Shown one piece after another: positions 3,756-32,101 of a stretch of 36,509 nt of DNA. The DNA is from Russula earlei (taxonomy: Eukaryota > Basidiomycota > Agaricomycetes > Russulales > Russulaceae). The stretch lies in contig JAGFNK010000521.1 in NCBI GenBank assembly GCA_025769875.1, forward strand, positions 1 through 36,509, written 5' to 3'. The notes below the pieces were generated by a model, which was not told the origin of the DNA, did no database searches, and saw nothing but the letters and a program-made list of their open reading frames with translations. Made by a program: the position numbers and the translations under genes. Position 1 is the first letter of the stretch. The number at the start of each line of letters is the position of its first letter.

Positions 3756-4679
3756 TGTCAAGACTCACTGTTGAACTATCCAGTTCAAGAGCGAGGGATA
3801 AGCTCGAAGACGAGTCGATAGACGTCCAAGACCGCGTGGGCAAGGAGTAGAACCCAGAGGAGCAACAAATACCAGAGAGGTATTGTTACTGTGAGAGTAG
3901 AACAATCACGCAGGGAAGAGGCCAGGATAGTCACAAGGGGATGGTCCTTAAAGGAGTATCCCAGGAATGGAGAGTGCCGTAAACAAATGGACAGTCTGAG
4001 GACTGTCCGCTACTTTATTGAGCGCTTATATACTACAAGAGAGCTGCTAAATAGGGAACAAGTCGTAACCTTGTTATCAAGCACAATAGAGTGATGAGTA
4101 AGAAGTCAGAGGATGCTTACTGAGCATGCTCAGTCATGCTCAGTAAGCTGCTGAGTAAGAAGCTCCTCTTGATGAGTAAGAGCTTACATTGTCCACGTGT
4201 TTACTGTTTTAGTGCACGTGCAAGCACCTGATTCATTTCCTGTTAGTTTAGGGCCGGTCATTTGAGGACTTGTAGTTTGGTTAGGGAATGGTGTTATCTT
4301 GTAAGGCCCTTATATAGTTCTATTAAGGTCCTTAGTGTTGCCTTATAGTTCGTTCTATAGTTATTAGAGTTGGTCTAATAACGCGTTGTAGGGCCTTTGA
4401 TACTAGGTTAGCACCTATTGTAGAGTTTCTAGGGTCGTTCTAGAGGGTCCTTAGGAAGGCCCTAATACTGTCTTTTGTCGCTAGAAGGGTTGCCTTTAAG
4501 TGGGGCTTGCTGTATGTCGATTGTGCCGAGAATCGCTCGCGCAACAATGCGCACGCGATATTGTGGACACCTCTACTCACCCCTTTTGCTCGTGTGAACA
4601 GGGTGGCATCATAGAGGCTGGGTTTCCTCCTATAAGGAAGGGTCCTTCAAGGGCCCTCTCCGGGGAATGGTTCATGACA
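3756..4679 (-). repeat. 3' LTR of element 1
   Basis: 924 bp with TGTCA..TGACA termini. Relative to the 5' LTR it lacks about 34 bp in the repeated CCTAATA/CTTAGAG area. It carries the same TATA box (4025-4032), palindrome (4120-4133) and splice-donor-like U5 end as the other copies. Confidence 0.92.
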
Positions 4680-4695
4680 TTCATCCCCTCTTTAT
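4680..4695 (-). promoter_or_regulatory. Polypurine tract of element 1
   Basis: Sense sequence ATAAAGAGGGGATG followed by AA lies directly upstream of the 3' LTR. This is the expected primer for plus-strand DNA synthesis. An exact 14-nt copy lies inside pol at 6265-6278. Confidence 0.8.
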
Positions 4696-7600
4696 GACTT
4701 AGTTGCTCCTGCAACTATGTTATTAGACTTAGGCATTGTTGGGTACTGTCGGTGAAAGGCCTTTACAGCCTCTTTGGCTTTAGTTAGGTTTGACGCGGGC
4801 TCCCAAGTGTTCTCTGCCGCGGGGTACCCTTTCCACTGTACTAGGTATTGAATGCCTCTACGGTTGGGGGAATGTCTGGACGCTAAGACTTTGTCCACTT
4901 CATACTGTTCCTCCCCTTCTATTATAGTAGGGGGGGGTTGTTTGAAATTAGGGCCGTGGGCAATGGTCTCTTTATATGGTTTGATCAGGGAATTATGGAA
5001 GACTGGATGTATCCTCCATGTCTTTGGTAGTTCCAGGCGTACGTTGACTGGGTATGAGGTGACCACCTTGAAAGGTCCGTATCGTCGAGGGGCTATCTTG
5101 GCTTTTGGGTGTGTTGTCTTCAGATTAGTGGCTTCTAGCCAGACTAAGTCTCCTGACTTAAACTGGTACTTGGGGAAGTGGGAACTGGGCTGTCCCATTA
5201 GTGCTGCGGCATTCCGGAGGGAGGCTGCGACCTCCTCTCTAAGTAGATCTAGTTGTTGCAGACGTTCCAGGACGGAAGGGAACTTGGTATTGAAATTGAA
5301 AGGGGGGGCAAATGTCGGATTGAAGCCATACCATATTTCAAAGGGGGCTTTGTGGGTTGCACTATGGGTGCGTGCGTTATGAGCGAACTCCATGAATGGG
5401 ACTAGTTCGGCCCAGTTATCTTGTTGGTGGTTACAGAAGATCCTCAAATACTGTTCTAATTCTTGGTTGACCCTTTCTGTTTCCCCATCTGATTGGGGGT
5501 GGTATGCCGTACTAAGGGAGGACTTAACATTTAGTTTCTTCCATAGTTCTTGGGTAACTTTTGCTGCGAACTGAGGACCTCGGTCGGAGATGATTTGAGT
5601 TGGTAACCCTACTCGTCTCCACACGTTGTTCATGATTAGAGAGGCAGTATCCTCTGCATTGATGGTCTTGTGACATGGGGAGATGATGGTAGCTTTACTA
5701 AAGCGGTCCACCACTACTAGTAGGCTGTCATACCCTTGAGAGAGAGGTAGATCGACAATGAAGTCCATGGTGATGCTGTCCCAGATCTTGCCCACAGGGG
5801 TGATAGGGACTAGGGGTACGGTCGTTGTTGGGCGGTTCTTTGTGCTTTGACATATAGCACAACCATCTACATAGTTCTTGACAAATGTTAACATTCCTGG
5901 CCACCAATAGTTACGGCTTATTAGTTCGTAGGTCTTCCATTGACCCGGGTGGCCAGTGGCTAAGGAATCATGGTGTACTTTGAGGACTGTTCGTCTTAGT
6001 GCGTCTGATCTTGGGACATAGACTTTTCCTTTGAAGAGAATCAGTCCTTCTTCTAAGTTCCAGTCCTGCAAGCCTTTTGTAAGGCGACGGGGGCCATTCT
6101 TCAGGATGGTTTCTAAGGCCTCTTTGACTTCCGGGTCAGTAGTCTTTGCTGGAACGTAGTTGTTTTCTTAGTTCGAAGTCCCCTATGGGTTCCGTTGTGG
6201 ATGGTCGGGTTGCCCTAATTTTAAAAAATTGCTGGTCGAGCAGGACCTGTGCGTCATTTTCATGCATCCCCTCTTTATAGTCTGGCCGCCTGGACAGACC
6301 GTCGGCTTTGTTTTGGGTTCCCGGGTGGTGAATAATGTGGAAATTGAATGCGCTAAGCAGTAAAGCCCACCGAGCTTGTCGCCGAGTGAGTTTCTGTTTT
6401 GTCATGAAGTATGTGAGGTTGTGGTGGTCTGTCCACAATTCCACAGGGTGTTTAGCACCTTCTAAGTAGTGTCGGAAATGCCAAAGCGAGGAAACTATAG
6501 CCAAAAGTTCTTTGTCGTAGATCATATAGTTTCTTTGAGCAGGATCTAATGATTTGGAGAAGTATGCCACCGGGTGGTATCGGTTTAGTTCATCCGGCTG
6601 TTCTAAAATGGAGCCGACCGCAAAGTCGCTTGCGTCGCAGATCAAGCGGAATGGTCGTGAATGGTCAGGGAGCATCAAGACGGGTGCCCTTTGTGAACGC
6701 TTCAATAAGGATGCGGAAGGCTTTTTCCTCTTCGGACCCCCAGTGAAATGGGTGGTCCTTCTTGGTTAAATTAAACAATGGTCGGGCTAGATGGGAATAC
6801 TGGTGTATGAAACGTCTGTAGAAGTTACAAAAGCCTAAGAAGGCTTGAACTTCGGTGATATTACTAGGGGTTGGCCATTGTGTAATGCCTATGAGTTTAT
6901 CTGAGTCCATTGATATGCGTCCTTGTGAAATGTGTATGCCTAGATAACTGATGGATGTTTGACGGAAAGCGCACTTTTCCGGCTTTAGGTATAAGTCATG
7001 GTCTTGTAGGATTTTAAGGACCTTGTGTGTCCATTGATCTAAGTCATGGACGGTGTTTGCAAGGATTAGTATATCGTCTAGATATACCACAACGTGTCCT
7101 GTTGTGATCAGTGGTGCTAAGATATTGTTCATGAATCGTTGGAATGTGGCTGGTGCATTACAAAGGCCGAAGGTCATTATAAGTGGTTCGAAGAGGCCTA
7201 AAGGTGTCTTAAAGGCTGCAAGGTGTTCATCACCTTGTCGCAGGCGGATGTTATTGTATCCCCATCGTACGTCAAACTTTGTGAAGTACTGTGCCCCTTG
7301 TAGTTTGTCAATGAGATCCGGGATTAATGGCAGGGGGTAGGCATCTTTGATAGTGGCGGCATTAAGTCCTCGATAGTCTTGTACTGGTCGCAAGGCACCT
7401 CCTTTCTTTTCTACAAAGAAAAATGGGCTAGCTATTGGTGCTTTGGAAGGGCGGATAGTCCCCCGTCTGAGGTGTTCGTCTAGATACTCCTTCAAGGCTA
7501 TTAATTCCTTAGGAGTGAGTCTATAGATGCCACAGTCCCTTCGTGAGGATTCTGGTTTGAGGTTAATGGCATGATCCCATGGTGCATGAGCAGGGAGGCG

Positions 7601-8422
7601 TTGGGACGCTTGTTCGTCAAATACACTTTGCCAGACTTTAAATTCTGTTGGGATTAGTTTCTCGAGGGGTTGTGTTGGCTGACTGTCCTTTGCCAGTTTG
7701 GTAGATGTTGTACTCTTTGCCTGGATTCGTAGTGGGTGACGTTGGAAGGCATTGTAAATGTGTTGATCAACAAGGGGTTCTTCCTTGTCCATGGTATCTC
7801 GAAATATTAATGCTGCTTCATGCTTGAATGATGGCTCTTCCTCTGCTGGAATTGTGAGGGCTTTTATCGATCCCGCGTGTGTACTGTGGGTCGATGGGAC
7901 TGTTATGGAGGGTTGTGTCATTACACACGTTGCTGGACAGTTCTGTAATGTGATAGTGTCGTTGGTCCAGTTGATATCTGGGTTATGGTGTCGTAGCCAA
8001 TCAGTACCCAGGATAATATCGTGGTCTCCGATGTTGGTAACAAGAAATTCTGCTTGTTCGTCATGTGTACCTCCCATTGCTTTGATTCGTAGTCGTTGGA
8101 TGGTGCTATATCTGATTAAACCATTAGTGTTTGTGGTGCCGTCTACATTCTGTGCTGGTAGGGGTCTTTGTAAGTTGCGGAGGTGGAGATTATGTTGATT
8201 CACAAATTGTTCGTGGATGATCATTCCTTCTGCCCCACTGTCTATGAGGGCACTTGCACCGATTTCCTTGCCGCTGAGTTTCCCCACGAGTGTTACTTTC
8301 AAGGCTATGGAAGGGGATCTTATATTCTTTGTAAAGACTTTGGGGTAATTGATTTGTACGGGTATAGTGGCAATCTGTACCGTATTCCTTAGCGGTGCAC
8401 TAAGGGGTTCTATCAAAAATCC
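4692..8422 (-). CDS. pol: Element 1 Pol: protease, RT, RNase H, integrase, chromodomain (two single-base frame breaks)
   Basis: Pol is entered from gag by a likely -1 frameshift at 8416-8422. Protease has ALIDSGAEG near 8245 and ends with IILGTDWL. RT has the FTKFDVRWGYNNI block and the catalytic YLDD box near 7077. RNase H has ICDASDFAVGS, then DKELLAI and WTDHHNL. Integrase has the zinc domain (HHDSLATGHPG..CAICQ) and the DDE residues in TMDF (about 5760), IISDRGPQF (about 5580) and SDGETERVNQ (about 5490). The C-terminal chromodomain (YLVQWKGYPAAENTWEP, about 4765-4900) places it among chromoviruses. One extra base near 6688 separates RT from RNase H, and one near 6156 separates RNase H from integrase; no nonsense codons interrupt the rest. 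It ends just before the polypurine tract with no extension. Confidence 0.92.
6265..6278 (-). promoter_or_regulatory. Internal (central) polypurine tract copy in pol
   Basis: The sense sequence ATAAAGAGGGGATG is identical over 14 nt to the tract beside the 3' LTR (4682-4695). It lies in the linker between RNase H and integrase (codons for YKEGMHE). Central tracts at comparable pol positions are known in lentiviruses and Ty1. Here it is a prediction from sequence identity. Confidence 0.6.
8387..8422 (-). promoter_or_regulatory. -1 ribosomal frameshift signal at the gag-pol junction of element 1
   Basis: In gag phase the RNA reads G GAU UUU UGA, so heptamer GGAUUUU (8422-8416) is followed at once by the gag stop. 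Pol continues in the -1 frame (GGA UUU UUG). After 10 nt comes an 8-bp hairpin, CCUUAGUG/CGCUAAGG with a CAC loop (8405-8387). GGAUUUA is a known site in MMTV pro-pol. Element 4 keeps the heptamer, the 10-nt spacing and a hairpin with compensatory changes. Confidence 0.72.
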
Positions 8423-10169
8423 ATAGGAGCAGAATGGGGACGTGGAATGTTAGCGGCGAGACTTTCTCGCCAAGTTACAAGGGAAGCAATAGGAACTGGG
8501 TCGGTGTCTTTCTGTTCAGGTTGTTCTTCCTGAATGGTAGCTGAACGGACTGCAGTCTGTGAGGATTGTCCGGGGCGACGAGCACGGGCAGCAGCTTTCT
8601 TAGACCTGCATTCTTTGGCCATGTGGTTGGGTTTGCCGCAATAATAGCACAGTTTTAATTCTGTGCGTCGTTGTTTCTCAGCTTTCGTGAGCGTGTTACG
8701 GGGGGCATTGTTGTTCCATCGTTGTTCACCTGGTTCCCCTTGATAGAGATTGATCTCTACTGGAGTATCCGGGTCATTAGTACCTAGACCTCTTGTTCGT
8801 ACTGGCGGTTTTCCTGTACGGAATGATGGTGACATCCACATGTGATACACTTGATCGAATTCGCGTGCTTTCTTGACCAGTGCTGCCAAGGTGGTAGGCT
8901 GCAGGTGTTATACCCAATATCTTGGTGTGAATCCCTTGATTCAGGTTACGGCGGAAAGCAAACATCTTAGTGTTCTCATCTGCTTGGGAGCGGGTCGCAT
9001 GATGGGACCACTTTTGGTACCATTCATTGAACGGGGTGTTGCCTTGTCGCAGGGAGTGCATTAAGGCATTTGATTCTAATTGCGCATCTGCTGGAATGAA
9101 GTGGTCGGCGAAGGCTGTCTTAAAGTCTTGCCAAGTGCCATAGTTGATTGGTTGTAAGGCCTGAGCCTTTGTCGTTAGTTCTCGGGCCCATGTCCCTGCT
9201 GGGGTACCTATCTTGAAGTGAGTAAGGGCCGCTGCGACTCTTTTCCCTTCATCTGGAAATGAGTCCAGGTTGATGTAGTAGTAGTTGTCCAAGGCAGCCC
9301 AGAATGTCTCCGCATTCTCCGCTTTGCCATCAAAGGCTTCTGGGGCAGTCCCAATGATACGATTCTGTTGTACCTGGGCAGGAGCTGGTGCCGCCATCGG
9401 AGCGGGTTGTACAGGAGGTGGTGGCGGTACTGGAGCTGGTGGTGCAGGGGGTACGGGTGGTGCTGCTTGTGCAGGTGCTGCCGGTGGTGGTGCTGGTGGA
9501 GCTGGTGTTGTTCGAACTCTGATTGAACGAACAGGAGTTTGTGTTGTTCGTGTAGGAGATGGAGGTGGTGGCGGGGGCGCCGCTACTGTGCGTTGTCCTA
9601 CTGTTACGGGAGTGGGAAGATGGCTTGGTTCGGGGGAGTCGAAACCTCCTGGTACTCTAGAGGGGCCTGGTGTTGGAGTGTTCCCTCGCGCTGGGGTGAG
9701 GGCTCTGGTAACTTGTGATAGAACCCTTGATGCGGTTTCTACTGTGGCTTCAAGGGTGCGGGTGACTTCTGCTTGCTCAGCCTCTTCCTGAGCGGTCGAG
9801 AAATCGACTGGCTTGTGGTTTCGGTATGTGAATAGTTCGAGATTCCTACTCCAGTGAACTGTTCGACCTTGGAATGACGCAGTTCCAGTGAGGAGGTCAA
9901 AATTGCGAAGAAAGGCGATTTCTGGGATGAGGGTTCGAAGGGTTTCTGGAGTGAGTTCCACGTCCTCTTCGTCCCAGTCTTTCCTTGCGTCTAGGGTCCA
10001 AGGGTCGTAGAGGGTATCGTATTGGGTGACTGCTCGGTTCTCTGCAGTAGCCACTATAGTATTCTCCAGTGATGTTATAGTCGACGTTTCGGAAGAGGAC
10101 AGGAATTTGTAGTTGTTCACTTTCTGTAAGGGGTCTTCGGGAAACCTCTTCTTCCGGACTTTGGCTCAT
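8413..10169 (-). CDS. gag: Element 1 Gag (two single-base frame breaks)
   Basis: Gag starts at ATG 10169-10167 (MSQSPEEEVSRRPL), the first ATG after the predicted transcription start. The N-terminal frame shifts by one base near 10040 into the frame with LYDPWTLDARKDWDEED. Then come a Pro/Ala-rich linker (about 9400-9600), a capsid-like helical domain (ETFWAALDNYYYIN..DFKTAFADHF..FAFRRNLNQGI), another one-base shift near 8897, and a CCHC zinc knuckle CYYCGKPNHMAKEC typical of nucleocapsid. It ends MDF-stop at 8413 in the slippery site. Element 4 aligns without these shifts at both sites (for example ILGITPTPTTLAALVK). Gag should assemble cytoplasmic particles and bind the RNA. Confidence 0.85.
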
Positions 10170-10172
10170 TCA

Positions 10173-10349
10173 CTAACGATGCCAATCTTGGTGCCACGGA
10201 CAATACGGGTCCTTACAGAAGTAGGGGTGTTCTAGAGAGTGGCGGTGTTCTTCTGGCGTTCGATAATAGATGCGCCCAATGAAGCGTATGGGTTTGTAAA
10301 GGTTCTCCCCCTTTACAACTTCTGCGTATGTTGCTGGCCGAATGATGGG
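10173..10349 (-). CDS. Cys/His module, second copy (element 1)
   Basis: This minus-strand frame without any ATG reads PATYAEVVKGENLYKP, then about 20 variable residues, then HPYFCKDPYCPWHQDWHR, followed by TAG TGA and immediately the gag ATG in the same frame. The C-x4-C-x2-H cluster looks metal-binding. It matches the copy at 10353-10547 and one in element 3, with many synonymous third-base differences, so the protein frame appears selected. How it is translated is unclear: readthrough, reinitiation or splicing. I know of no named family for it. Confidence 0.55.
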   Translation of the reverse strand, partial: PIIRPATYAEVVKGENLYKPIRFIGRIYYRTPEEHRHSLEHPYFCKDPYCPWHQDWHR

Positions 10350-10352
10350 CTA

Positions 10353-10547
10353 TGGGTCCCAAGACTTGTGCCAGACGCGGGTGTAGTGCCAGTCTTTGTG
10401 CCAGTAGCAGTAAGGATCTTTGCAATAGAACGGGAGTTGAAACAGATATTGATCTCCTTTTGTGAGGTGAAAGATGCGTCTTCTGTGATCGTGTGGTTTG
10501 TAAAGGCCTTCTCCCTTTACTACTTCTGCGTAGGTGGCTACTGGGAT
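10353..10547 (-). CDS. Cys/His module, first copy (element 1)
   Basis: Reads IPVATYAEVVKGEGLYKP, a basic middle (HDHRRRIFHL), then LPFYCKDPYCYWHKDWH and ends at a TAG (10352-10350). It is exactly 204 nt upstream of and in frame with the second copy, so the pair is a tandem duplication. It directly follows the end of ORF0b (stop at 10549) but in the +1 frame. Element 4 lacks the module altogether, so it is an optional cassette between ORF0b and gag. Confidence 0.55.
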
Positions 10548-10548
10548 T

Positions 10549-11035
10549 CTATAGAGGGACGGTGGTCCAGTGTGTTGCGTCCCAGGGGTATGTGACGGCG
10601 TAGGCTGGTAGTAATATGGGGATGCCCCTTCGTTGGCTTTGGAGGTTCTGGGTGATGCGAAAATATTCTTCCGTGACGCCAGAGTATGTTATTGCTACTC
10701 GACCTTTCCAGAGGAAACCTTCGAAGTCTAAGGGATGTGGGGCAAATTGATTGATTTCTTCTATTGGATGGTCTATGCGCACGAATGCTTGAGTTCTCGC
10801 GTGCCACAGTTCTTTGCAATGATTCTTGAAATCTAATAGTTCCCTACGAGTTCTATGAGGTAGTACTGATCCTAAGTATGCTAGCTCGGGGAAGTAGCAC
10901 CGTAAGCCAACTATAGAACCTGGAGGCGACTGGCTACTACTTGAATGCTCTACTAAAGGAGTAGCGAAAGGGGTTAACTGTCGATCAGTATACGGAAGTG
11001 GGATTGGGATAACTGGGGGAGTTAATGGTAAAGGG
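10549..11035 (-). CDS. ORF0b C-terminal part (out of frame with ORF0b in this copy)
   Basis: An ATG-less frame of about 160 codons: ERPLPLTPP, then LRCYFPELAYLGSVLP, RRELLDFKNHCKELWHART, LDFEGFLWKGRVAITYS, AYAVTYPWDATHWTTVPL-stop. Element 4 encodes the same order (ERPLPPTPP, ELHLYLPEQSFLALNLP, KRELLEFKNYC, AYTIAYPWNNGHWT), so it is the continuation of ORF0b. The join to ORF0b near 11040 needs a -1 (or +2) shift. Function unknown. In element 4 this frame ends by overlapping the gag ATG in ATGA. Confidence 0.6.
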
Positions 11036-11039
11036 CGCT

Positions 11040-12076
11040 CTACTCTTGAAACTGCAGAAGCAGAGCGGCGGCCTCTTCGTCTGTGAGAGGGCGCCAGAGT
11101 GGTTGATGCGGGAGGTGTCTATCTCCTGGGGTCCACAGGGTTATTCCTGGTGGCGTGGGGGGTGTGTCGGGTCGGAAGCCGCAGTTGCACACTTCTCTGA
11201 GGCAGAGACAGACGCCGGGACGAGTTGGTGTAGGGGACCAATGGGTGCGGATGCTACTAGTCGGGGTTCGTCTTACTACAGGGGTGAGAGGTCGGCTGAT
11301 GGTGGAAAGTTCTTCGGGGACAGGGGGGCCAGTATAAACTGCTGGCGGCGGAGAATAGAGTCCTGCGGGGTCTACAAGGTTCTGAGGGGCGTCCACGATG
11401 CTGTGGGTCCAGGTAGTCTCTCTCCAATTGTAAATGTACCTTCTGCCTTCCACGTAAGCCAATTGGAGGGTTGCGGGTCCTCCCTGGGTAGATCTGTTAA
11501 GGCGGAGGTAATTAAACTGCACCGAGATGTGTTCGTGCGTGAGGGTGAAAAGGGACAGGTAGTATGAGGCTTGGCCTTCCAGTAGTTCTTGGACGAGAGC
11601 GTAATGCTGAGGCAGGATAACTTCAGTCCACAACTTCTCGTCGCTGTCAGTGAGGGTGAGGATGCCAGTTGGCTCTCCGTCGAAGTTTCTAGAGCTGGAG
11701 AGGTACCAAAACAAGAGTTGGCGGCGAGCGGGTTCGACGAGGTGACCAAGGGTGTCGATGAACAAATCGTACTGTATTTGATTGAGGACTTGTCCGAATG
11801 GGAGGAGGCCTACTAAGTCTCGGAGGACGTAGGCGTTGTGAGACCAGATTTCAATTTGTTGTCGGTCGTAGACGTTGACAATCGAGACTGGGGGAAAGTA
11901 AATGTCCCGAAGGATGGGAAGGTGGTTAACAATGAGTCCGTGCTGCTGGAGGACTGCGTCGTCCTCTGAGTCGTACTCAGAGTTGGTGCTCGGGTTGGGG
12001 GAAACTGTGAATCGCGGAGGCACTGCAGACAAAGCTTTGATTTCTTTAGTCTAGTGTTACAAGGGTAGTTCTTACT
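11040..12076 (-). CDS. ORF0b: conserved AUG-less protein opened by splicing
   Basis: An open frame of about 327 codons with no methionine codon of its own. Removing the 53-nt intron 12075-12023 joins A (12076) to TG (12022-12021) and makes an in-frame AUG: MPPRFTVSPNPSTN. Visible stretches are an acidic N-terminus (SEYDSEDD), LLPFGQVLNQ, PARRQLLFWYL, LWTEVILPQHYALV, SVQFNYLRL, a Pro-rich part with YTGPP, and a motif CNCGFRPDTP..ITLWTPGDRHLP. Element 4 keeps these (PARQQLLYWHL, LWTRIIQPRHH, VQFYHLRL, CMCSYRPETP, ITLWTPGNYHLP) at much lower DNA identity, which argues for a real protein. Function unknown; the paired Cys could bind metal. No signal peptide or membrane segment seen. Confidence 0.62.
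12023..12075 (-). other. Predicted intron 2 of element 1 (53 nt), creates an AUG
   Basis: Donor GTAAGA after GAAA, branch-like ACTAAA, pyrimidine-rich TTTGTCTGCAG acceptor. The spliced junction reads GAA A|TG CCT, an AUG with purine at -3, in frame with ORF0b. A second possible donor (GTGTTA, 12114) would remove 92 nt and fuse ORF0a to ORF0b, also giving A|TG. Confidence 0.62.
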
Positions 12077-12091
12077 TTCAAGAACTATGCA

Positions 12092-12999
12092 CTAGGTAGC
12101 GATATTGATAACACTTGGGCGAAGAGGGTCCAAAGTAAGCAGAGGATTCAGAGGGAGACGGGGGAGGAAACAGAAGCGAGACAAGGCAGGGTAGACACGG
12201 AGGTTGTCTAGGGAGTTCGAGAAACTGTTCTCGAATGATATATATCCTCCCTCGGCTATCTTTAGGTAAGCGTATGAGTAATAAACTCTGCCGTCGAGAA
12301 AGTCGTGGATGGAGGTAAGGATAAAAGACCCTTGGTAGGCAAATCGATAAATGGGGGGCAATGTCTCCAAATGACGATATATGGATGAGTTAAACAAGTA
12401 GTGGAGGCGACCGAAGGGGAAGTCTATGTCCGGAGGGTGTATCCCCACGGAACTACACACCTCGAAGCTAGCCAAGCTAAACTGTTTGACGAGATCGCGG
12501 TTGGTAGGCAGTACCGCAAAAGTGTGGGCGGTTTTGGCTCGAAAGGGGGAAACAAAGATGTCGGTGGATGGTCGCTGGAGCAAGTGGCCTATAGTAGGGA
12601 TGGTGGAAAGGGCGTCGCGTCGTGCTGCTTCCTCCAAAGGGCGCCAGTGTTCTACTTCGTTATGCCGGACACGATAGACTTGAAACTGGTGGGGGTGGAA
12701 GGCGTACTCCGCGCAGTCCGGAGGATTAAAGAAACCTTGTGGGATCGGAGGAATGTTTTCTTGATTATCAGGAGGGTTGTCCTCTTCGTAAGTCCCCGGA
12801 AGGGGAAGAATTGCAACAGGGGGAAGTCCGGGTGGCGGAGATAGGGTTGAGACAAGTGGAAGAGATTGGGGAAGTGATAATAGTTGGATGTCGGGAGTGT
12901 GGGGCTCCAAGGAACTAAGGGTCGGAATGTCGTTGGACACTTGATGAGTCGACTGGTCAGCACGGGTGGTAAGAGACTGTCCAGATGTCAAGACTCACT
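12092..12999 (-). CDS. ORF0a: AUG-less protein opened by splicing at the LTR end
   Basis: A frame of about 282 codons with no methionine codon. Joining A (12999, in the LTR) to TG (12939-12938) across intron 1 gives an in-frame AUG: MSNDIPTLSSLEPHTP. The N-terminal part is Pro-rich (LSPPPGLPPVAILPLPG); the middle has CAEYAFHPHQFQVYRVRHNE and EHWRPLEEAARRDALS; the C-terminal part is aromatic (IYRHLETLPPIYRFAYQGSF). It stops at TAG 12094-12092, five codons before the AUG made by intron 2 and in the same frame, so readthrough or reinitiation could link the two. There is no second copy in this window to compare, and I do not recognise the protein. Confidence 0.5.
12940..12998 (-). other. Predicted intron 1 of element 1 (59 nt), creates an AUG and removes the primer site
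   Basis: Donor GTGAGT lies inside the last 13 bp of the LTR, branch sequence GCTGAC is 17 nt before the acceptor ATCAAG. The junction CAACA|TGTCC makes AUG with A at -3, in frame with ORF0a. The primer-binding site (12974-12983) is inside the intron. The donor is kept in the solo LTRs of this family. Confidence 0.62.
12974..12983 (-). promoter_or_regulatory. Self-priming primer-binding site of element 1
   Basis: Sense TGGACAGTCT, 2 nt from the LTR end, is exactly complementary to AGACTGTCCA at the predicted RNA 5' end (13227-13218). This matches the Tf1 mode, in which the first 11 nt of the transcript prime reverse transcription. Priming by a tRNA whose 3' end is ..TGTCCA is the alternative. 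Confidence 0.65.
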
Positions 13000-13945
13000 G
13001 TTGAACTATCCAGTTCAAGAGCGAGGGATAAGCTCGAAGACGAGTCGATAGACGTCCAAGACCGCGTGGGCAAGGAGTAGAACCCAGAGGAGCAACAAAT
13101 ACCAGAGAGGTATTGTTACTGTGAGAGTAGAACAATCACGCAGGGAAGAGGCCAGGATAGTCACAAGGGGATGGTCCTTAAAGGAGTATCCCAGGAATGG
13201 AGAGTGCCGTAAACAAATGGACAGTCTGAGGACTGTCCGCTACTTTATTGAGCGCTTATATACTACAAGAGAGTTGCTAAATAGGGAACAAGTCATAACC
13301 TTGTTATCAAGCACAATAGAGTGATGAGTAAGAAGTCGGAGGACGCTTACTGAGCATGCTCAGTCATGCTCAGTAAGCTGCTGAGTAAGAAGCTTCTCTT
13401 GATGAGTAAGAGCTTCCATTGTCCACGTGTTCACTGCTTTAGTACACGTGCAAGCACCTGATTCATTTCCTGTTAGTTAGTTTAGGGCCGGTCATTTGAG
13501 GACTTGTAGTTTGGTTATGGAATAGTGTTATCTTATAAGGCCCTTATATAGTTCTATTAGGGTCCTTAGAGTCGACCCTAATACTTCTATTAAGGTCCTT
13601 AGTGTTGCCTTATAGTTCGTTCTATAGTTATTAGAGTTGGTCTAATAACGCGTTGTAGGGCTTTTGATACTAGGTTAGTACCTATTGTAGAGTTCCTAGG
13701 GTCGTTCCAAATGGTCCTTAGGAAGGCTCTAATACTGTCCTTAGTTGCTAGAAGGGTTGCCTTTAAGTGGGGCTTGCTGTATGTCGATTGTGCCGAGAAT
13801 CGCTCGCGCAACAATGCGCGCGCGATATTGTGGACACCTCTACTCACCCCTTTTGCTCGTGTGAACAGGGTGGCATCATAGAGGCTGGGTTTCCTCCTAT
13901 AAGGGAGGGTCCTTCAAGGGTCCTCCCGGGGAATGGTTCATGACA
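12986..13945 (-). repeat. 5' LTR of element 1
   Basis: 960 bp, TGTCA..TGACA ends. U3 holds a perfect 14-bp palindrome CTGAGCATGCTCAG (13350-13363) followed by a related half-site; R starts about 13227; U5 ends with the GTGAGT donor. Drives sense transcription to the left. Confidence 0.92.
13218..13262 (-). promoter_or_regulatory. TATA box and predicted transcription start of element 1
   Basis: Sense TATATAAG (13262-13255) lies 35 nt before A at 13227. That A begins the 10-nt stretch complementary to the primer site. The start overlaps an inverted repeat GGACAGTC-CTCA-GACTGTCC. Element 3 has the same geometry with 34 nt. Confidence 0.62.
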
Positions 13946-14616: not shown

Positions 14617-14971
14617 GCCATATAGCTGTGTGGGTGAGTTGACATCGAGGCCATGCTGAGATGCAAGGGAGGCAAAGGCAAGTGAATCAGTCTTGAATTG
14701 TGACTGAAAGACAGAACACTCACCCATAAAGTGACCACAAGCAGAACGCACTGAACAATGGACTTGACAATGTTCATATATGGCATGTTCGACCTCAAGA
14801 GCAAGAGAATGGGCAATGTGAAGGTGAGGTGGGTGTGAGAAGCGATGTACAGTGTCCAAGTGATGTGTGGCAGCCAGGAAGCAACTCAAAAAAAACAAGT
14901 GTACACATATGTGCCACTGAATCACTCAGCGTTTGCATTCACATTTGTTTGCCACAAATCACTTACAAGAG
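14617..14971. other. Spacer between inverted repeats, no gene seen
   Basis: No coding signature. The last 17 bases (14955-14971) belong to the right inverted-repeat copy, split from the rest by the solo LTR. Confidence 0.45.
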
Positions 14972-15920
14972 TGTCATGAACCATTCTCTGGAGAGGGCCC
15001 TTGAAGGACCCTTCCTTATAGGAGGAAACCCAGCCTCTATGGTGTCACCCTGTTCACACAAGCAAAAGGGGTGAGTAGAGGTGTCCACAATATTGCGCGA
15101 GCAATTCTCGGCACAATCGACATACAGCAAGCCCCACTTAAAGGCAACCCTTCTAGCAACTAAGGACAGTATTAGAGGCCTTCCTAAGGACCATTTGGAA
15201 GGACCCTAGGAACTCTACAATAGGTACTAACCTAGTATCAAAAGCCCTACAACGCGTTATTAGACCAACTCTAATAACTATAGAACGAACTATAAGGCAA
15301 CACTAAGGACCTTAATAGAAGTATTAGGGTCGACTCTAAGGACCCTAATAGAACTATATAAGGGCCTTATAAGATAACACTATTCCATAACCAAACTACA
15401 AGTCCTCAAATGACCGGCCCTAAACTAACTAACAGGAAATGAATCAGGTGCTTGCACGTGTACTAAAGCAGTGAACACGTGGACAATGGAAGCTCTTACT
15501 CATCAAGAGAAGCTTCTTACTCAGCAGCTTACTGAGCATGACTGAGCATGCTCAGTAAGCGTCCTCCGACTTCTTACTCATCACTCTATTGTGCTTGATA
15601 ACAAGGTTATGACTTGTTCTCTATTTAGCAGTTCCCCTGTAGTATATAAGCGCTCAATAAAGTAACAGGACAGTCCTCAGACTGTCCATTTGTTTACGGC
15701 ACTCTCCATCCCTGGGATACTCCTTTAAGGACCATCCCCTTGTGACTATCCTGGCCTCCTCTCTGCGTGATTGCTCTACTCTCACAGTAACAGTGCCCCT
15801 CTGGTATTTGTTACTACTCTGGACATTACTTCTTGCCCACGCCATCTTGGACATCTATCGACTTGTCTTCGAGCTTATCCCTCACTCTTGAACTGGATAG
15901 TTCAACAGTGAGTCTTGACA
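14972..15920 (+). repeat. Solo LTR of the element-1 family
   Basis: 949 bp with TGTCA..TGACA ends, opposite orientation to element 1. It keeps the TATA box, the AGACTGTCCA start region and the GTGAGT donor near its end. The flanks are ..ACAAGAG and AGAGTAC..; the uninterrupted sequence in the left inverted-repeat arm (reverse complement ACAAGAGTACATATG) shows the insertion site and implies a 4- or 5-bp duplication sharing one T. Confidence 0.9.
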
Positions 15921-19107: not shown

Positions 19108-21034
19108 TGTCATGAACCATTCCCCAGAGAGGGCCCTTGAAGGACCCTTCCTTATAGGAGGAAACCCAGCCTCTATGGTGTCACCCTGTTCACACGAGCA
19201 AAAGGGGTGAGTAGAGGTGTCCACAATATCGCGCGCGCATTGTTGCACGAGCGATTCTCGGCACAATCAACATACAGCAAGCCCCACTTAAAGGCAACCC
19301 TTCTAGCAACTAAAGACAGTATTAGGGCCTTCCTAAGGACCCTTTGGAACGACCCTAGAAACTCTACAATAGGTACTAACCTAGTATCAAAGGCCCTACA
19401 ACGTGTTATTAGACCAACTCTAATAACTACAGAACGAACTATAAGGCAACACTAAAGACCTTAATAGAACTATTAGGGTCGACTCTAAGGACCCTAATAG
19501 AACTATATAAGGGCCTTATAAGATAACACTATTCCCTAGCCAAACTACAAGTCCTCAAATGACCGGCCCTAAACTAACTAACAGGAAAGGGATCAGGTGC
19601 TTGCACGTGCACTAAAGCAGTAAACACGTGGACAATGGAAGCTCTTACTCATCAAGAGGAGCTTCTTACTCAGAAGCTTACTGAGCATGACTGAGCATGC
19701 TCAGTAAGCGTCCTCCGACTTCTTACTCATCACTCTATTATGCTTGATAACAAGGTTATGACTTGTCCCCTATTTAGCAGTTCTCTTGTAGTATATAAGC
19801 ACTCAATAAAGTAGCGGACAGTCCTCAGACTGTCCATTTGTTTACAGCACTCTCCATCCCTGGGATACTCCTTTAAGGACCATCCCCTTGTGACTACTGT
19901 CATGAACCATTCTCCGGAGAGGGCCCTTGAAGGACCCTTCCTTATAGGAGGAAACCTGGTCTCTATGGTGTCACCCTGTTCACACGAGCAAAAGGGGTGA
20001 GTAGAGGTGTCCACAATATCGCGCGCGCATTGTTGCGCGAGCGATTCTCGGCACAATCGACATACAGCAAGCCCCACTTAAAGGCAACCCTTCTAGCAAC
20101 AAAAGACAGTATTAGGGCCTTCCTAAGGACCCTTTGGAACGACCCTAGGAGCTCTACAATAGGCACTAACCTAGTATCAAAGACCCTACAACGCGTTATT
20201 AGACCAACTCTAATAACTATAGAACGAACTATAAAGCAACACTAAGGACCTTAGTAGAAGTATTAGGGTCGACTCTAAGGACCCTAATAGGACTATATAA
20301 GGGCCTTATAAGATAACACTATTCTCTAACCAAACTACAAGTCCTCAAATGACCGGCCCTAAACTAACTAACAGGAAATGAATCAGGTGCTTGCACGTGC
20401 ACTAAAGCAGTGAACACGTGGACAATGGAAGCTCTTACTCATCAAGAGAAGCTTCTTACTCAGCAGCTTACTGAGCATGACTGAGCATGCTCAGTAAGCG
20501 TCCTCCGACTTCTTACTCATCACTCTATTGTGCTTGATAACAAGGTTATGACTTGTTCCCTATTTAGCAGTTCTCTTGTAGTATATAAGCGCTCAATAAA
20601 GTAGCGGACAGTCCTCAGACTGTCCATTTGTTTACGGCACTCTCCATCCCTGGGATACTCCTTTAAGGACCGTCCCCTTGTGACCATTCTGGCCTCTTCC
20701 CTGCGTGATTGTTCTACTCTCACAGTAACAATACCTCTCTGGTATTTGTTACTACTCTGGACTCTACTCCTTGCCCACGCGGTCCTGGACGTCTATCGAC
20801 TCGTCTTCGAGCTTATCCCTCGCTCTTGAACTGGATAGTTCAACAGTGAGTCTTGACAACTACCCTGGCCTCTTCCCTGCGTGATTGCTCGACTCTCACA
20901 GTAACAATACCCCTCTGGTATCTGTTACTACTCTGGACTCTACTTCTTGCCCACACAGTCTTGGACGTCTATCGACTCGTCTTCGAGCTTATCCCTCGCT
21001 CTTGAACTGGATAGTTCAACAGTGAGTCTTGACA
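19108..21034 (+). repeat. Outer solo LTR (element-1 family) inserted in element 2
   Basis: Segments 19108-19897 and 20864-21034 make one 961-bp LTR (TGTCA..TGACA), flanked by CTCAT at 19103-19107 and 21035-21039. It is split by a second copy of the same LTR. It sits about 15 bp before the gag-pol frameshift site of element 2. Confidence 0.9.
19898..20858 (+). repeat. Inner solo LTR nested in the outer one
   Basis: 961 bp, TGTCA..TGACA, flanked by ACTAC at 19893-19897 and 20859-20863, in the same orientation as the LTR it interrupts. Both are closely similar to the LTRs of element 1. Confidence 0.92.
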
Positions 21035-24950: not shown

Positions 24951-27900
24951 CTAAAATCGAGTGGTGGGGTCAACGCCATCATCATCAAGGGGAGGAGGTG
25001 ATGTAGTGAAGGTGTATCGGCCTTCTTCTGCTGCCTCATAGGCAGCCAATGCTGAGGCCACTATCGCCTCTGACTCCTCAGCAGTGGCTGAAGGAGACAT
25101 GATCTGTGGGAGTCTGTCAGAGTCCCTAGGTAACCTCCGGACTGGAGGTGTGTCTGAGCGAAGAGGAGTTGTAGTGAAAGGTTCTTGAAAGGTCCTGGAC
25201 CCTTCTCCTTTCGCTACCTGCAAAATGTGCGGGTTAGCAATGTCCTCCCTCTCCTGGTCGGACTTCCTCTTCCTGCTCGGGTGTGCCTGTTCCCATCCTC
25301 GGTGGAAAGGGCATGATCTGATTGGTGTATAGGAACGATGATAGGGAGGCACTAGGCAATGTGAGGCAGCGTCTGCTGCCAGTTGGTCGTGGCAATACTG
25401 GTGGGGCAGTGGACAGTACTTGTTAAAATGTCCTACCTCGCCACAATACTTGCATCGGTTCCTTTTCCTCCTCCCTTCTATCATGTTCAGCTGCTGAGGC
25501 TCCAGAATGAAGTCAGCCGTTGCAGTAGACGCTTCCCCACTGCTGCTATAGGAATGGTAATAGATAGAGCTTTGGGGGGAAGGGTTTGGTGACGCTTCCG
25601 ATCCTGCTCCTCCTCGAAGGCGCATACCGGACATGGTTTGGAGGACGTTCATCTCCTCTTCTGTATACCCTTGCACCGTCGTAGGTGTGGGGCTGGCTGG
25701 TACTGGTTCTGGGTCAGAGGTAGCATACCCCTGAGCGATGTCTGCCAAAGGCAGCTGAGGGACGAAGACGGGTAGAGGGGGAGTGGGCTGCCCAGCCCGA
25801 TAGTTGGTGAGGAGTTCTTCAGCCCAGACACCTGGAGGGGTTTCTCCCTGGCTACAGCCTGCTTCAATGAACTCCCAACAACGTGAGCGTACTTTGGCTG
25901 CCGCCATTCTCTCCTTGGCTTCAGCCCTGTCTCTCTCTACTCCTCGCTTCTCAGCTAGGTACTTGCTGAGCTTGTAGCGCAGCTGCTTCTCCTCTTCTTC
26001 AAGCACCTTATAGTTAGCTTCCAGCGTCTCTTGTAAGGTGTAGAGATGGTCCAAGCGGTAGAGTTCTGCCTGCAGCCCATAGTCGCCTAGCAGGTAGAGG
26101 GTCTGTCTCCAGCGCCCTTCGAACTGCCTCTCTGTGTCGAAGCAGTCTAAGTCATGTTCGTCTTGGCCATAGTTATAGAGGTTATAGCAAGGGGTGGCCT
26201 GGAGGATCTCGCCATAGTCTGCATGGCCTTCTCCATTCTTCCCCCTCACTCTCGGCTCTCCCAAGGCAACGTCATAGGCCACATACCTGGCCGGTTTGTT
26301 GCCCCAAGTCATGCCATCAGGGATGTCAATCCCTGTGTGGTGTCTGTCAGCGTCCCATCGTACCCAAGGCTCTCCAGGGTGGGCATCCTGGGCAAGAGTG
26401 CTGGTGGGGGACGTCACATCCCAATCCCCAGGCTGAACGTCGACTTGGTCAGCAGGGGGTCCAAATTCGAGAGGACGCATATCTGCTTCTCCTTCTCCAG
26501 TGTTATGTTCATCCATTCCTTGGAAGAAGGCAAGAAGGGAAGCATCGGGAGTGGTGATTTCAAGTGGCCCCTCTACACCAGAGAGGTCGGACTGGGGAAC
26601 GATTTCATTAGTGGGAGTTTGGGACATTTGTGAGCGACGATATGGGGATGAGGAAGTAGAGGGCATCTTTCGCTGGACTTTTATAACCCGTATGGCCGTG
26701 GGGTTCTTTCTGTGATATTCCTCTATTAGTCTAGACGCTTTGATGTTCTCTACTGGCTCCCAAGAGTCATGGGCTTCGGAGTACCCTTCCCACCGGACTT
26801 GATACTCTAGTTGTTTCCTCCTTCCAGTTCGTCTCGAACCTAAAATCGTTGCTACTTCATATTCCTCTTCTCCTTCCACCAATTCTGCTTCTGGATTGGT
26901 GTAGTTGGCCCCATGCTCCTCGGTTTCCTTGTAAGGTGTCAATAAGGAGGCATGAAACGCGTTATGGATCCTCCAGCGGCTAGGGAGATCCAATCTGTAT
27001 GTCACCGGACTAATCACCTCCGTGATTTCAAAGGGCCCATATCGTTTTGGGCGTAGTTTCACTGTAGGATGTGTCGTTTTTAGGTTGGTGCTGTCGAGCC
27101 ATACCCTTTCTCCTTTCTGATAAGGTTGGAAACTACTTCTTCGCTTCCACATTAGGGAAGCGATCTTCATCGCTTCTTGTGCCTGTGATCTCGCTTCCTG
27201 GATCCGGACTTTCCAATTGTCTATTCTTGGTATCTTGCTTTCCCGATTTGGCTGGTGTGCTTTGGGCGTAAAACCCATCCATAAGAAGAAAGGGGATTGT
27301 CTGGTTGTCTCTGAAACGTTAGAATTCATCGTGTATTGCACCAGAGGCAGCCAATCCACCCAGTCGTCTTGTTGGTGGTTGCAAAAGATTCTTAGCGATG
27401 TTTCCATCGTCTGATTCGTTCTTTCTGATTGTCCATCTGTCTGAGGATGGTAGGCAGTGCTGATATTCTGTTTGATATGCAGCTGGTCGCAAAGTTCCCT
27501 AATGAACTTGGAACTTATTAGTTTATCTCGATCGGATATGATCTTGCTTGGTACTCCCACAAATGGGAATATTCTGTCCTTGTAGAGCTGTGCTAGCTCT
27601 TCTGCGTCCATTTCTTCTTTGCAAGGAAGCAAGATGACGCCTTTAGTACAATCGTGGTCAGTGACAGTCAATATACTGTCATATCCTTTCGACTTCGGCA
27701 ATTTGACCACAAAGTCCATGCTGACAGTCGAGAAGGGAGTAGCCCCTTCTTCTGGTGGAATGGGATACAAGGGAGGTCGATTTGGATGAGTGTTTGACTT
27801 GTTACTTTGGCAAATTGCGCATCCTTCCACATATCGATCGACAAAGCGTCTTATGGTGGGCCACCAGTAGTATCGCATCATTCCCAGTAATGTTTTAGCT

Positions 27901-30201
27901 TTTCCTGGGTGTCCTGCTGTGGGACTGTCATGATACTGTTCCAGTAAGGTCCTGTGGGTTCCTTCGTCGCCTGTAACCACCAAGGCTTCATTCTTCCACC
28001 ATAAGTTATGTCGCTTCTCCAGTCGGTGTCTCTGTACCCAATCAAGTAACTTTAATCGGTGTCTTTCTTCCCCTTGTTGGTTCTTTATCCGTTCTTCCAA
28101 TGCAGTAGTGTGCATTACTCGAATAAAAAGATGGTCAGGTAGCGCGACCACTTCTTCTTTATCCCCTTGTCCATCGTCAAGGTCAGGTCTCCTTGACAGG
28201 GCATCTGCTTTATTCCTTGCCCCTGCCTGATGTTTCAATTCTAAGTCGAAGTCCGCCAAGAAGGTAATGTATCTTGCCACTCGACCATTTATTCGCTGAG
28301 GGTGTCGGTAATGCAACAGGTTCGCATGGTCTGTATAAACCACCACCTTATGCTTTGCTCCCATGAGTAGGTGTCGCCAGTGTTTCAAGGCTCGCACCAT
28401 GGCTAAGAACTCTTTGTCCCATATGTCGTAGTTCTTCTCTGCTTGTTTCAAGGCTGCTGAGAAGTAACCTATTGGCCTCCTCTTTCCTTGTTCGTCCTTC
28501 TGGAATAATACTGCTCCAATGGCATAATTGGACGCGTCTACTTCCAGTTCAAAGGGTCGCTCCTCATCAGGATGGAGCAGGACAGGGTCAGAAGATACTA
28601 TCTGGATAAGTCGTTCCAGAGCATCTTTGCATTCTTGGGTCCATTCAAATGGCACCCCTTTCTTTGTCAAGGCAATAATGGGTCGAGCAATCTGACTGAA
28701 TCCTCGAATGAAAGCCCTATTGTAACTGAGGACTCCCATGACTTTGCGCACTTCGTGTACGTCCTTGATTTCCCGAGGCCAGTCCGTGATTCCTCGGACT
28801 TTGGAGGCCTCAATCTTCATCTTCCCTTCGTCTATGTCCCATCCTAGCATGGTTAGTTTTCGCACCATGAACTGGCACTTCTGGGGTTTCAGGAAGTATG
28901 ACTTCTTCTGCATCAGCAGTGAGTAGTTCGTTGACACATTGCTCATGGATTTCTAGTTGTTCAGGACTGTCCCCCGTGGCAATTCCAAAGTCATCCAGAT
29001 AGTTGACCGTGTATTCTGCCCATCGGTCCAGCCAGTCACCGAAGTCTCTTCTCATCAGCCTAGTAAAGAAGGCTGGTGCGTTCTTGAGCCCAAAATACAT
29101 GACGTTGGGCAGGTAGGTTCCATATGGCGTCTTGAAGGCTGCCTTCCAGCGATCTCCTTCTGCCAGTCGCACATTATTGTATCCCCATCGTATATCGAAT
29201 TTGGAGAAGACCTTTTTCCCTCGGAGTCTTTCCACCTCTTGTTCCAGATGTGGTAAAGGTTCATTGTCTCGTCTGGTCCACTGATTTAGTCGTCGATAGT
29301 CTACAATGATCCTCTTCTCCTTGCTGTCCTTCTTGCCAATGAAGAACACTGGAGATGTGTAGCTGGATGGACCTGGAGTGATGTATCGCTTCTCTACTTC
29401 ATCAGCTAGGAATTTCTTGAGGTATTCTCGCTCATCTCGTGTTAGGGGGTACACTTTGCAGTTTAGTTCCTTTGGTGCGTCAGGTAACAGCTCTATCTGC
29501 ATGTCTGGTTCCCTTGGTGGTGGGAACCTCTGGGACTTCTCTTCTGAGAAGACATCTGCAAAGCGGTGGAATTGCTTTGGAACATTGGCAAGGGGATCCT
29601 CTCCTTCCTGTGGTTTAATCGACTGCTGGGCCCACTTCTGAGCAATAGTCGTCTTTTGTAGGTAAATGGCTTCCCCTTTCTTCAATTGTCGGTTTTCATC
29701 TCTTGCTCGCTTTTGGAGTTTTGCGACATAGAGATCCAGGTACTTGTATCGAGCAGTCTCAATCTGTACCGTTCCTTCCATCAGCTGTCCTTTCTTCCAG
29801 TTGATGGTGGGGTCGAATTCATATAGGAAGGGATATCCCAGGATGACCCGATCCGTTCCTAAATCTGTGAGATAGAACCTTTGCAAGCTCTCCTTCTCCT
29901 TGTATCGGACGCGAAGCCAGCAGTAATGGGTGAGTTCCCCTTGCTTATTCTGGGTTCCGTCGACGTTTCGTACTACCATGGGTTCATGTAGTTCTTGTTT
30001 CCCAATCTTCAGTCTTTTCCAAGCTGAGTGATCGATGAAGTTCTCTGTTGCTCCACTGTCCAGTAGAGCAGATTCCTCGGCCGTTGTGTGTGCAGTGACG
30101 AAAGTGAACGGAATATTCATAGCATTCAGTCTTCTAATGTACACTTGCAACACACTATTCTTCCTAAGCCAGGCCGTCGACTTAGGTGTTCCTAAAAACC
30201 C
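24951..30201 (-). CDS. pol: Element 3 Pol with chromodomain and about 585-residue C-terminal extension
   Basis: Entered from gag by a probable -1 shift at 30195-30201. Protease has LLDSGATENFI; RT has SKFDIRWGYNNV and YLDD (about 29000); one extra base near 28915 breaks RT. RNase H has VDASNYAIGAV and TDHANLL. Integrase has GHPGKAK..CAICQ, SMDFVV, IISDRD and DGQSERTNQ; the chromodomain (QVRWEGYSEAHDSWEP) is at about 26715-26875. The frame then runs about 585 codons further: an acidic/Pro-rich part, a coiled coil (TLQETLEANYKVLEEEEKQL, about 25890-26075), and a second CCHC knuckle CKYCGEVGHFNKYC (25412-25456) followed by more Cys/His. Chromoviral Pol normally ends soon after the chromodomain, as element 1 does. 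Confidence 0.92.
30163..30201 (-). promoter_or_regulatory. -1 ribosomal frameshift signal of element 3
   Basis: In gag phase CAG GGU UUU UAG. The heptamer GGGUUUU (30201-30195) fits X XXY YYZ, and pol continues in the -1 frame (GGG UUU UUA). After 8 nt comes an 8-bp hairpin CCUAAGUC/GGCUUAGG with an 8-nt loop (30186-30163). The yeast L-A virus uses the similar GGGUUUA. Confidence 0.72.
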
Positions 30202-31542: not shown

Positions 31543-32101
31543 TTCGACTGATTCTTCTGGCTTCTTCAACGATTGTTGGTTCAATGGGCGAGACGTGTAC
31601 TGTCTGCTCTAGTCTTTCAGCTAGCTCCAATACTTCTGGTGCTTCTGCTTTCTGATCTGTAGTCGGAGGGTCCGACTGTTCTGTTTCTCCACTTGATGAC
31701 TTTTGTATCAATGGAGCTGGGTCGTCTACTACTGGGCTTCTGGGTTCCCAATGAGTAGTATAAGGATCTGTCCTGGTTCCTAAACCTAGGACCTTATATT
31801 CGTCGATGTCTTCGTCCTCTCCTGCGTAGGGACGTCCTTTGTGGTAATCAATAAAGTACCACTGATCGTTGATGTATTCACAAGGAAGGTAGCTTCCTTT
31901 GTATCGGACCTCGTATCTGTTAGGCCCTTCCTGGTCTGCCCAACACCAGATGGCAGTTCCTTTGATTCCTGAGGGTAGATCGTCCCTCTCTCTAGCTTTG
32001 AACCAACCAAATTTGGTTCCTTGCTTTGATTTCTGGTTGAACTTTACGCGTATGCTATGTTCTCCTTCGATTTCCAGTTTGTCCACTCGCCACTGCCTTT
32101 C
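31543..32101 (-). CDS. ATG-less frame upstream of gag in element 3
   Basis: Open from a TAG at about 32104 down into the gag start with no methionine codon: DKLEIEGEHSIRVKFNQ, FGWFKARERDDLPSG, IKGTAIWCWADQEGPNRY, VRYKGSYLPCEYINDQWYF, then an acidic part (YAGEDEDIDEYKV). The frame continues past 31543 over gag as a shadow. No clear homology to ORF0a or ORF0b of element 1. Initiation would need a non-AUG codon, reinitiation or splicing. Regular amino-acid composition supports coding, but there is no second copy to test. Confidence 0.45.

Follow-up and report, generated by a model that had tools for sequence, protein, structure and literature searches.

Splicing as a proposed start-codon switch in the AUG-free leader of a Ty3/gypsy retrotransposon of Russula earlei

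How can a retrotransposon express long, conserved reading frames that contain no start codon? This question is raised by a stretch of 36,509 nucleotides (nt) of Russula earlei DNA (GenBank contig JAGFNK010000521.1, here C521; the whole stretch is called the window), which carries on its minus strand, from position 13945 to 3756, a Ty3/gypsy chromovirus with three such frames, ORF0a, ORF0b and ORF0c, upstream of gag. Retroelements must divide one transcript between message and genome. Judged from its sequence and that of its relatives, the element probably uses splicing as a start-codon switch in an AUG-free coding leader, with a probability of about 0.78, as the original prediction had proposed. 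Of that proposal, the A/TG design of two introns (the slash marks the splice junction) and the AUG-free leader were found, together with conservation of both in two families and the exact absence of intron 2 from four copies; splicing of intron 1 and translation of the frames are predicted. Copies were sought in the 66.6-Mb genome and fall into family 1, the family of the window element with 42 copies retrieved, and family 2, a second, diverged family in the same genome. The features on which the argument depends are these:

13256 to 13262, minus strand: TATA box, TATATAA, from the sequence; the same motif occurs in family 2
13218 to 13227, minus strand: AGACTGTCCA at the predicted transcription start, the reverse complement of the primer-binding site, from the sequence
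10170 to 13227, minus strand: AUG-free leader, 3058 nt
12986 to 13945, minus strand: 5' long terminal repeat (LTR), TGTCAT...CTTGACA, identified by its match to the 3' LTR and to further LTRs
12974 to 12983, minus strand: putative primer-binding site TGGACAGTCT, from the sequence, two bases past the LTR and within intron 1
12940 to 12998, minus strand: predicted intron 1, A/GTGAGT...CTGAC...AAG/TG, from the sequence and the copy alignment
12095 to 12937, minus strand: ORF0a, 281 codons following a predicted Met created by splicing, ATG-free
12051 to 12095, minus strand: predicted, conserved RNA hairpin with inner stem 12086-12080/12073-12067 and outer stem 12095-12090/12056-12051
12023 to 12075, minus strand: intron 2, A/GTAAGA...CAG/TG, exactly absent from four genomic copies
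11043 to 12020, minus strand: ORF0b, 326 codons following a predicted Met created by splicing, ATG-free, with a C-terminal CxC...CxC and RPDTPPTPP motif
10552 to 11118, minus strand: ORF0c, conserved, at -1 to ORF0b, ATG-free, without AG/TG acceptor
8416 to 10169, minus strand: gag region; its ATG at 10169 is the first after the predicted start

Conserved frames in a leader without ATG

No ATG occurs in any frame of the minus strand from 13296 to 10169. The transcription start was placed at 13227 on the basis of its distance from the TATA box (35 nt after the box begins) and the boundary of ATGs in family 2. Between this position and the Gag ATG, 0 ATGs were found in 3058 nt, compared to a mean of 23.5 and a minimum of 14 in 300 dinucleotide shuffles; the gag-pol region contains 78 ATGs versus 67.2 expected. 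In the family 2 copy L069, ATGs stand at 226 and 233 and none follow, with the AGACTGTCCA motif at 245. That the ATGs end just before this motif supports AGACTGTCCA as the transcript start. The family 2 leader is ATG-free in three of the five copies read there, L069 (0 in 2841 nt), L071 (0 in 2845 nt) and L073 (0 in 2985 nt, counted from the start of the stretch), and so are the leaders of the three family 1 copies nearest to the window element (C372, C19a and C1023, 0.7 to 5.8% divergent). The other family 1 copies counted contain 3 (C144), 4 (C648), 6 (C63) or, in the remaining 17, 9 to 37 ATGs. Freedom from AUG is therefore characteristic of recent copies, and older ones lose it. Older family 1 copies have gained more ATGs than random placement of the same number of changes would give, perhaps by C-to-T decay of ACG.

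Methionine is absent from all three leader frames in the window copy and in L069, in agreement with the original prediction of an AUG-free leader in which ORF0a and ORF0b have no ATG of their own. Protein identity between the two families is 43% for ORF0a, 38% for ORF0b and 49% for ORF0c. Divergence at codon positions 1, 2 and 3 was 0.099, 0.059 and 0.234 for ORF0a (23 of the 27 copies tried), 0.089, 0.054 and 0.272 for ORF0b (27 of 27) and 0.083, 0.053 and 0.242 for ORF0c (25 of 27), with copies covered under 80% excluded. Third positions vary 2.3 to 3.1 times as much as first and 3.9 to 5.0 times as much as second positions, and by this measure the three frames are under purifying selection.

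A profile search with ORF0b retrieved 28 relatives with 6 internal methionines in 8779 residues. Their identity of 26 to 37% suggests that a wider group of such elements is present in the public sequence data; searches of viral_contigs and genome_contigs gave no relative of ORF0b. Among the 13 relatives of ORF0a are two proteins of Russula earlei, one of them 84% identical to a family 2 copy. Eleven relatives, with lengths summing to 4365, hold 1 internal methionine altogether, in a count that leaves aside P0029 and P0030, which both contain Met; P0029, P0030 and P0033 were kept out of the ORF0a alignment. ORF0c has 1 relative, close to family 2. The first residue of the ORF0b relatives is V in 13 of 13 entries present only in jgi and M in 15 of 15 others, which reflects either a convention for writing GTG or genomic versus spliced sequence. 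This difference was rejected as proof of splicing because databases may write GTG starts differently.

The structure model of ORF0b has a pLDDT of 78.5 with a confident core predicted, and its fold gave no match with E ≤ 0.001 in PDB or BFVD; the model of ORF0a is poor (pLDDT 54.5). Pfam and PHROGs contained no match for ORF0a, ORF0b or ORF0c, and PDB none for ORF0b by sequence. ORF0c, located at 2449-3078 in L069, has neither an ATG nor, in the scan of the window for AG/TG, an acceptor, hence no A/TG route. Where ORF0c overlaps ORF0b, inspection by eye revealed no slippery heptamer. Long conserved proteins without a methionine codon, in a leader that is ATG-free in all frames, are a strong and testable signature.

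Conservation of the introns and exact loss of intron 2

Intron 1 (12998-12940, 59 nt) reads A12999/GTGAGT...GCTGACCAG...CAAG/TG 12939-12938, and its join would open ORF0a with MSNDIPTL. Intron 2 (12075-12023, 53 nt) reads A12076/GTAAGA...CTGCAG/TG 12022-12021, and its join would open ORF0b with MPPRFTVS. Coordinates, donors, acceptors and lengths are exactly those originally predicted, both joins are in frame, and the accompanying argument that A/TG is the only mode workable in an AUG-free leader is sound. Seven AG/TG sites occur in the window leader, and only those of the two introns open a frame of more than 49 codons; in L069, which also has 7 sites, the frames behind the two homologous ones run to 306 and 304 codons and that behind a third to 149. 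Four introns delimited in the actin gene of the host have 50, 51, 55 and 55 nt and the donors GTAAGT, GTACGT, GTCAGT and GTAAGT. Since these lengths and donors are similar, both leader introns look host-type, and intron 2 is a GT-AG intron of host-like length.

In family 1, intron 1 could be aligned in 37 of 42 copies, with A/GTGAGT in 37 of 37 and AAG/TG in 36 (GAG/TG in 1). The 12 of 13 family 2 copies covering this site have A/GTACGT (11) or A/GTACAT (1) and AAG/TG (12 of 12), so that donor 1 differs and the preceding A, TTGAC and AAG/TG are retained; L082, a family 2 stretch, shows no intron 1. Intron 2 could be aligned in 41 of the 42 family 1 copies, with the A in 41, GT in 37, YAG in 41 and TG in 40, and family 2 has A/GTAAG and AAAG/TG in 13 of 13 copies. 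The A/TG pattern thus shows little or no variation, with up to 41 of the 42 copies retrieved for family 1 and 12 to 13 of the 13 read for family 2. Of the invariance expected in an alignment of copies, that of the A (37/37 and 41/41) and of the TG at intron 1 (37/37) held, and that of the TG at intron 2 (40/41) did not fully.

The ORF0 frames might instead start at GTG or near-cognate codons by leaky scanning, like ORF I of rice tungro bacilliform virus, with the introns being incidental. A similar AUG-free layout is translated in this way in that virus, according to excerpts of PMC5902531, and an in-frame GTG is present at both acceptors. This would, however, account neither for the conservation of the A preceding the donors nor for the branch-like motif and the exact losses of intron 2, which makes it very improbable.

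These losses concern C337 of family 1 and C95, C839 and C465 of family 2, in which patterns of the joined exon ends indicated exact absence of intron 2; C465 was found with 1 mismatch, and reversed control patterns gave 0. In the alignment, which included L074, precisely intron 2 is gone from the four copies and an ATG stands at the join, which reads AAAATGCC and matches the prediction for splicing. A deletion by microhomology between the short repeats at the two intron ends, AAAGT in family 2 and AGT in family 1, was rejected: it would leave AAAGTGCC. Because the join lacks the G of such a repeat deletion, loss via spliced RNA fits better, and intron 2 was most likely spliced out of the RNA from which these copies arose. 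All four retain intron 1 and the primer-binding site. Their source RNA would have kept intron 1 as well and would represent an mRNA with a single AUG for ORF0b; joins of donor 1 to acceptor 2 numbered 0 with patterns of family 1.

This retention bears on whether ORF0b may be translated not from a first AUG but by re-initiation after termination at the ORF0a stop, on RNA that has lost both introns. The splice-made AUG of ORF0b would lie 15 nt past the ORF0a stop in the window (stop at 12094-12092, A at 12076) and 2 nt past it in L069 (TAA, AA, then ATG over the join). Such short spacing may nevertheless reflect only a compact design, and since the four copies kept intron 1, a singly spliced RNA likely exists. 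Re-initiation is an unlikely route to ORF0b.

Copies without intron 1 were not found in either family, with 0 hits for exact patterns and 0 with up to 3 mismatches in searches that miss joins with indels. The putative primer-binding site in this intron, TGGACAGTCT, is the exact reverse complement of AGACTGTCCA (10 of 10 bases in the window and in L069), so that the predicted 5' end of the RNA is complementary to the primer-binding site as in Tf1-type self-priming. An RNA lacking intron 1 would lack this putative priming site and should not serve as a template for replication. The absence of intron-1-less copies may thus result from the position of the primer-binding site, which fits splicing and is no proof of it.

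Alternatively, only intron 2 is real, and intron 1 is a look-alike made of the LTR end and the primer-binding site, with ORF0a translated from a non-AUG codon, for instance an in-frame GTG. The LTR end and the primer-binding site would be conserved in any case, and the genome searches gave no copy without intron 1. Yet loss of the primer-binding site would account for the missing copies, the AAG/TG acceptor and CTGACCAG, located outside LTR and primer-binding site, are nearly as conserved, and the family 2 donor became GTACGT with the preceding A kept. Such an arrangement is improbable, and intron 1 may be spliced like intron 2 to yield the mRNA for ORF0a.

The proposed switch, its counterarguments and known systems

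In the proposed mechanism, the unspliced RNA would be scanned through the leader to the AUG of Gag as the first AUG, comparable to rice tungro bacilliform virus. Removal of intron 1 would make the AUG of ORF0a the first one, 229 nt from the start, and removal of intron 2 that of ORF0b, so that each RNA form would have one leading AUG. Intron 1 begins in the LTR and carries the primer-binding site, and its splicing would also withdraw the RNA from replication. Position -3 is A or G at the splice-made AUGs and T at the Gag ATG in the window and in L069. Use of the TTAG immediately upstream of the Gag ATG as an acceptor was rejected, as it would make an out-of-frame AUG in family 1.

This weak context of the Gag ATG, together with stop codons directly before it in both families (in L069, the ORF0c frame stops 4 nt before), would agree with ribosomes arriving at Gag by internal entry, or by re-initiating once ORF0c has ended, instead of scanning over 3 kb. 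Neither route requires three frames to be ATG-free over 3 kb, however, and both are doubtful.

The arrangement can be read as a modular splice code of a lineage of mushroom retrotransposons, with A at both donors, TG at both acceptors, a leader purged of AUG and one start codon per splicing event; intron 1 would decide between message and genome, and a hairpin would set the second switch. This extended model is somewhat more likely to be right than wrong. The predicted hairpin (AGTTCTT-loop-AAGAACT plus an outer stem) begins at the stop codon of ORF0a and extends over the first half of intron 2. Its inner 3' arm covers donor 2, and the stem occupies donor bases +3 to +9. Bases to be recognised by U1 are thus held in the stem and U1 would have to compete with the fold, so that the hairpin may mask donor 2 and restrain splicing of intron 2.

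In 29 distinct sequences, 94.7% of the cells pair versus 24.9 to 52.3% with the partners slid, although these sequences were chosen by a pattern holding the inner stem and their full pairing is partly due to this choice. In the alignment, which was not so chosen, 41 of 41 copies have an unaltered AGTTCTT and 40 of 41 an unaltered AAGAACT, and the fold is better than that of shuffles (z of -2.67 in the window and -2.43 in L069). Both partners differ in two of the pairs (A-U to G-C and U-A to C-G), a number also reached by 285 of 500 shuffles, and the pair changes mostly mirror one split between the families. A change of the donor 2 GT to TT would extend the stem and abolishes the donor; the family 1 copies with this change, loci L049, L058, L064 and L066, perhaps represent a lineage abandoning intron 2.

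Besides these limits of the hairpin data, evaluation of the switch needs to consider a number of observations that weigh against it. The AUG-free state is seen only in the window copy with the three copies nearest to it and in three of five family 2 copies; the leaders of L070 and L072 in family 2 carry several ATGs, and the 23 of 42 family 1 copies counted contain 364 ATGs in total versus 251 in a null model of random placement. ORF0c is equally conserved and AUG-free yet has no A/TG route and is not explained by a switch. The Russula earlei gene model P0029 reads through the acceptor of intron 1, and its start is not located there. The GT of donor 2 is lost in 4 of 41 family 1 copies (C113, C481, C43 and C1137) and the TG after intron 2 in one, C862. 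A missing intron-1-less copy is expected by the model and equally if intron 1 is not spliced at all. Pattern searches miss joins with indels, and the one that gave C465 missed C839 and C337. Finally, the three intron-2-less copies of family 2 share downstream changes that are absent from 5 readable intron-bearing copies of this family, which means that their losses may be one event and that at least two events occurred overall, one per family.

Splice-made start codons are already known from retrotransposons. In gypsy, the start codon of env is made by splicing, with AT from the 5' site and G from the 3' site (PMC2585583, in part), and in the springer subclade env is spliced from an AU dinucleotide (PMC12992720, in part). 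The view that no retrotransposon with such an arrangement has been described cannot be maintained in this form. Drosophila gypsy resembles the element of the window in being an LTR retrotransposon with an accessory open reading frame (ORF), env, whose start codon arises by splicing. Gypsy has one env ORF, the AT/G phase and a donor in the gag region, whereas two ORFs before gag, the A/TG phase, a first donor at the LTR end and an AUG-free leader are found here.

The env of gypsy, an errantivirus, lies after pol. There is no room for an env-like ORF after pol in the window element, in which the last pol frame ends at 4692 and the 3' LTR starts at 4679; the extra ORFs precede gag.

Rice tungro bacilliform virus has AUG-free coding ORFs over about 900 nt, through which ribosomes scan to the polyprotein ORF; the first ORF starts at AUU after a shunt, and P4 is made from spliced RNA (excerpts of PMC5902531). 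As in this virus and the badnaviruses, coding ORFs upstream are kept free of internal AUG, and one ORF of the virus comes from spliced RNA. The leader here is longer, about 3,000 nt, and its upstream ORFs would gain a true AUG by splicing.

The first 11 bases of the Tf1 transcript are complementary to the primer-binding site (PMC7175516, in part). The window element resembles the self-priming Tf1/sushi and Tcn1 elements in that the predicted 5' end of its transcript complements the primer-binding site; it differs in that this site lies within a predicted intron and would be removed by splicing. In BARE1, a spliced RNA is the Gag message and another, unspliced RNA is packaged (PMC3735527, in part). 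A spliced RNA as message for part of the element beside an unspliced RNA is thus a shared trait, but splicing in BARE1, as described there, ends the frame after Gag, whereas the splicing proposed for the window element would give access to additional frames upstream of Gag. In a limited search of titles and abstract openings, with subscription literature mostly outside its reach, no start codon made by splicing upstream of gag, within a leader free of AUG and with the priming site in an intron, was found.

If the switch exists, an RNA with an AUG-free leader could act both as genome and as message for Gag, and the start codons of ORF0a and ORF0b would arise by splicing. Splicing of intron 1 would also delete the priming site, so that the division between message and genome would be written in the sequence. 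A switch of this kind would moreover account for the failure of gene finders to detect such genes, the start codons of which are absent from the genome.

Remaining parts of the element and its surroundings

Two further parts complete the element:

4695 to 8449, minus strand: pol with protease, reverse transcriptase, integrase and chromodomain, from Pfam
3756 to 4679, minus strand: 3' LTR

Pfam matches above the cut-offs were gag-asp_proteas, RVT_1, Integrase_H2C2, rve and Chromo, giving the order protease, reverse transcriptase (RT), integrase with the chromodomain at the C-terminus of the integrase. The LTRs are of the TG...CA type (TGTCAT...TTGACA), the target-site duplicate GTTCC flanks both ends, and the last 13 bases of the 5' LTR start with the intron 1 donor GTGAGT. 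The gag of the window copy is split over frames, a capsid frame to 8780 and a zinc-knuckle frame at 8907-8416, and its Gag frame is broken near the start by a one-base difference, which means that the window copy is not a working element. Over the stretch read, the Gag frame is open in 3 of 16 aligned copies, with the window copy counted among the 16. The original prediction mentions neither this broken frame nor ORF0c, and neither the hairpin at donor 2 nor the location of the primer-binding site within intron 1.

In family 1, an extra protein-like stretch lies between ORF0c and gag (window 10165-10549, minus strand). By eye, it contains a duplicated CKDPYC..WH..DWH motif resembling a small zinc finger; it is missing in L069, in which gag directly follows ORF0c.

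Elsewhere in the window, the list of ORFs, inspected by eye, indicated a second retroelement at 24951-32101 on the minus strand with a long integrase/RT-like ORF, a gag-like ORF near 31608 and a further ORF before it. A decayed family 2 copy at 33207-36509 on the minus strand is truncated at the contig end and includes a piece of ORF0b at 35967-36350. Extra family 1 LTRs without internal region are present at 14969-15920 and 19108-21034, and those at 19108-21034 repeat as if one had inserted beside or into another.

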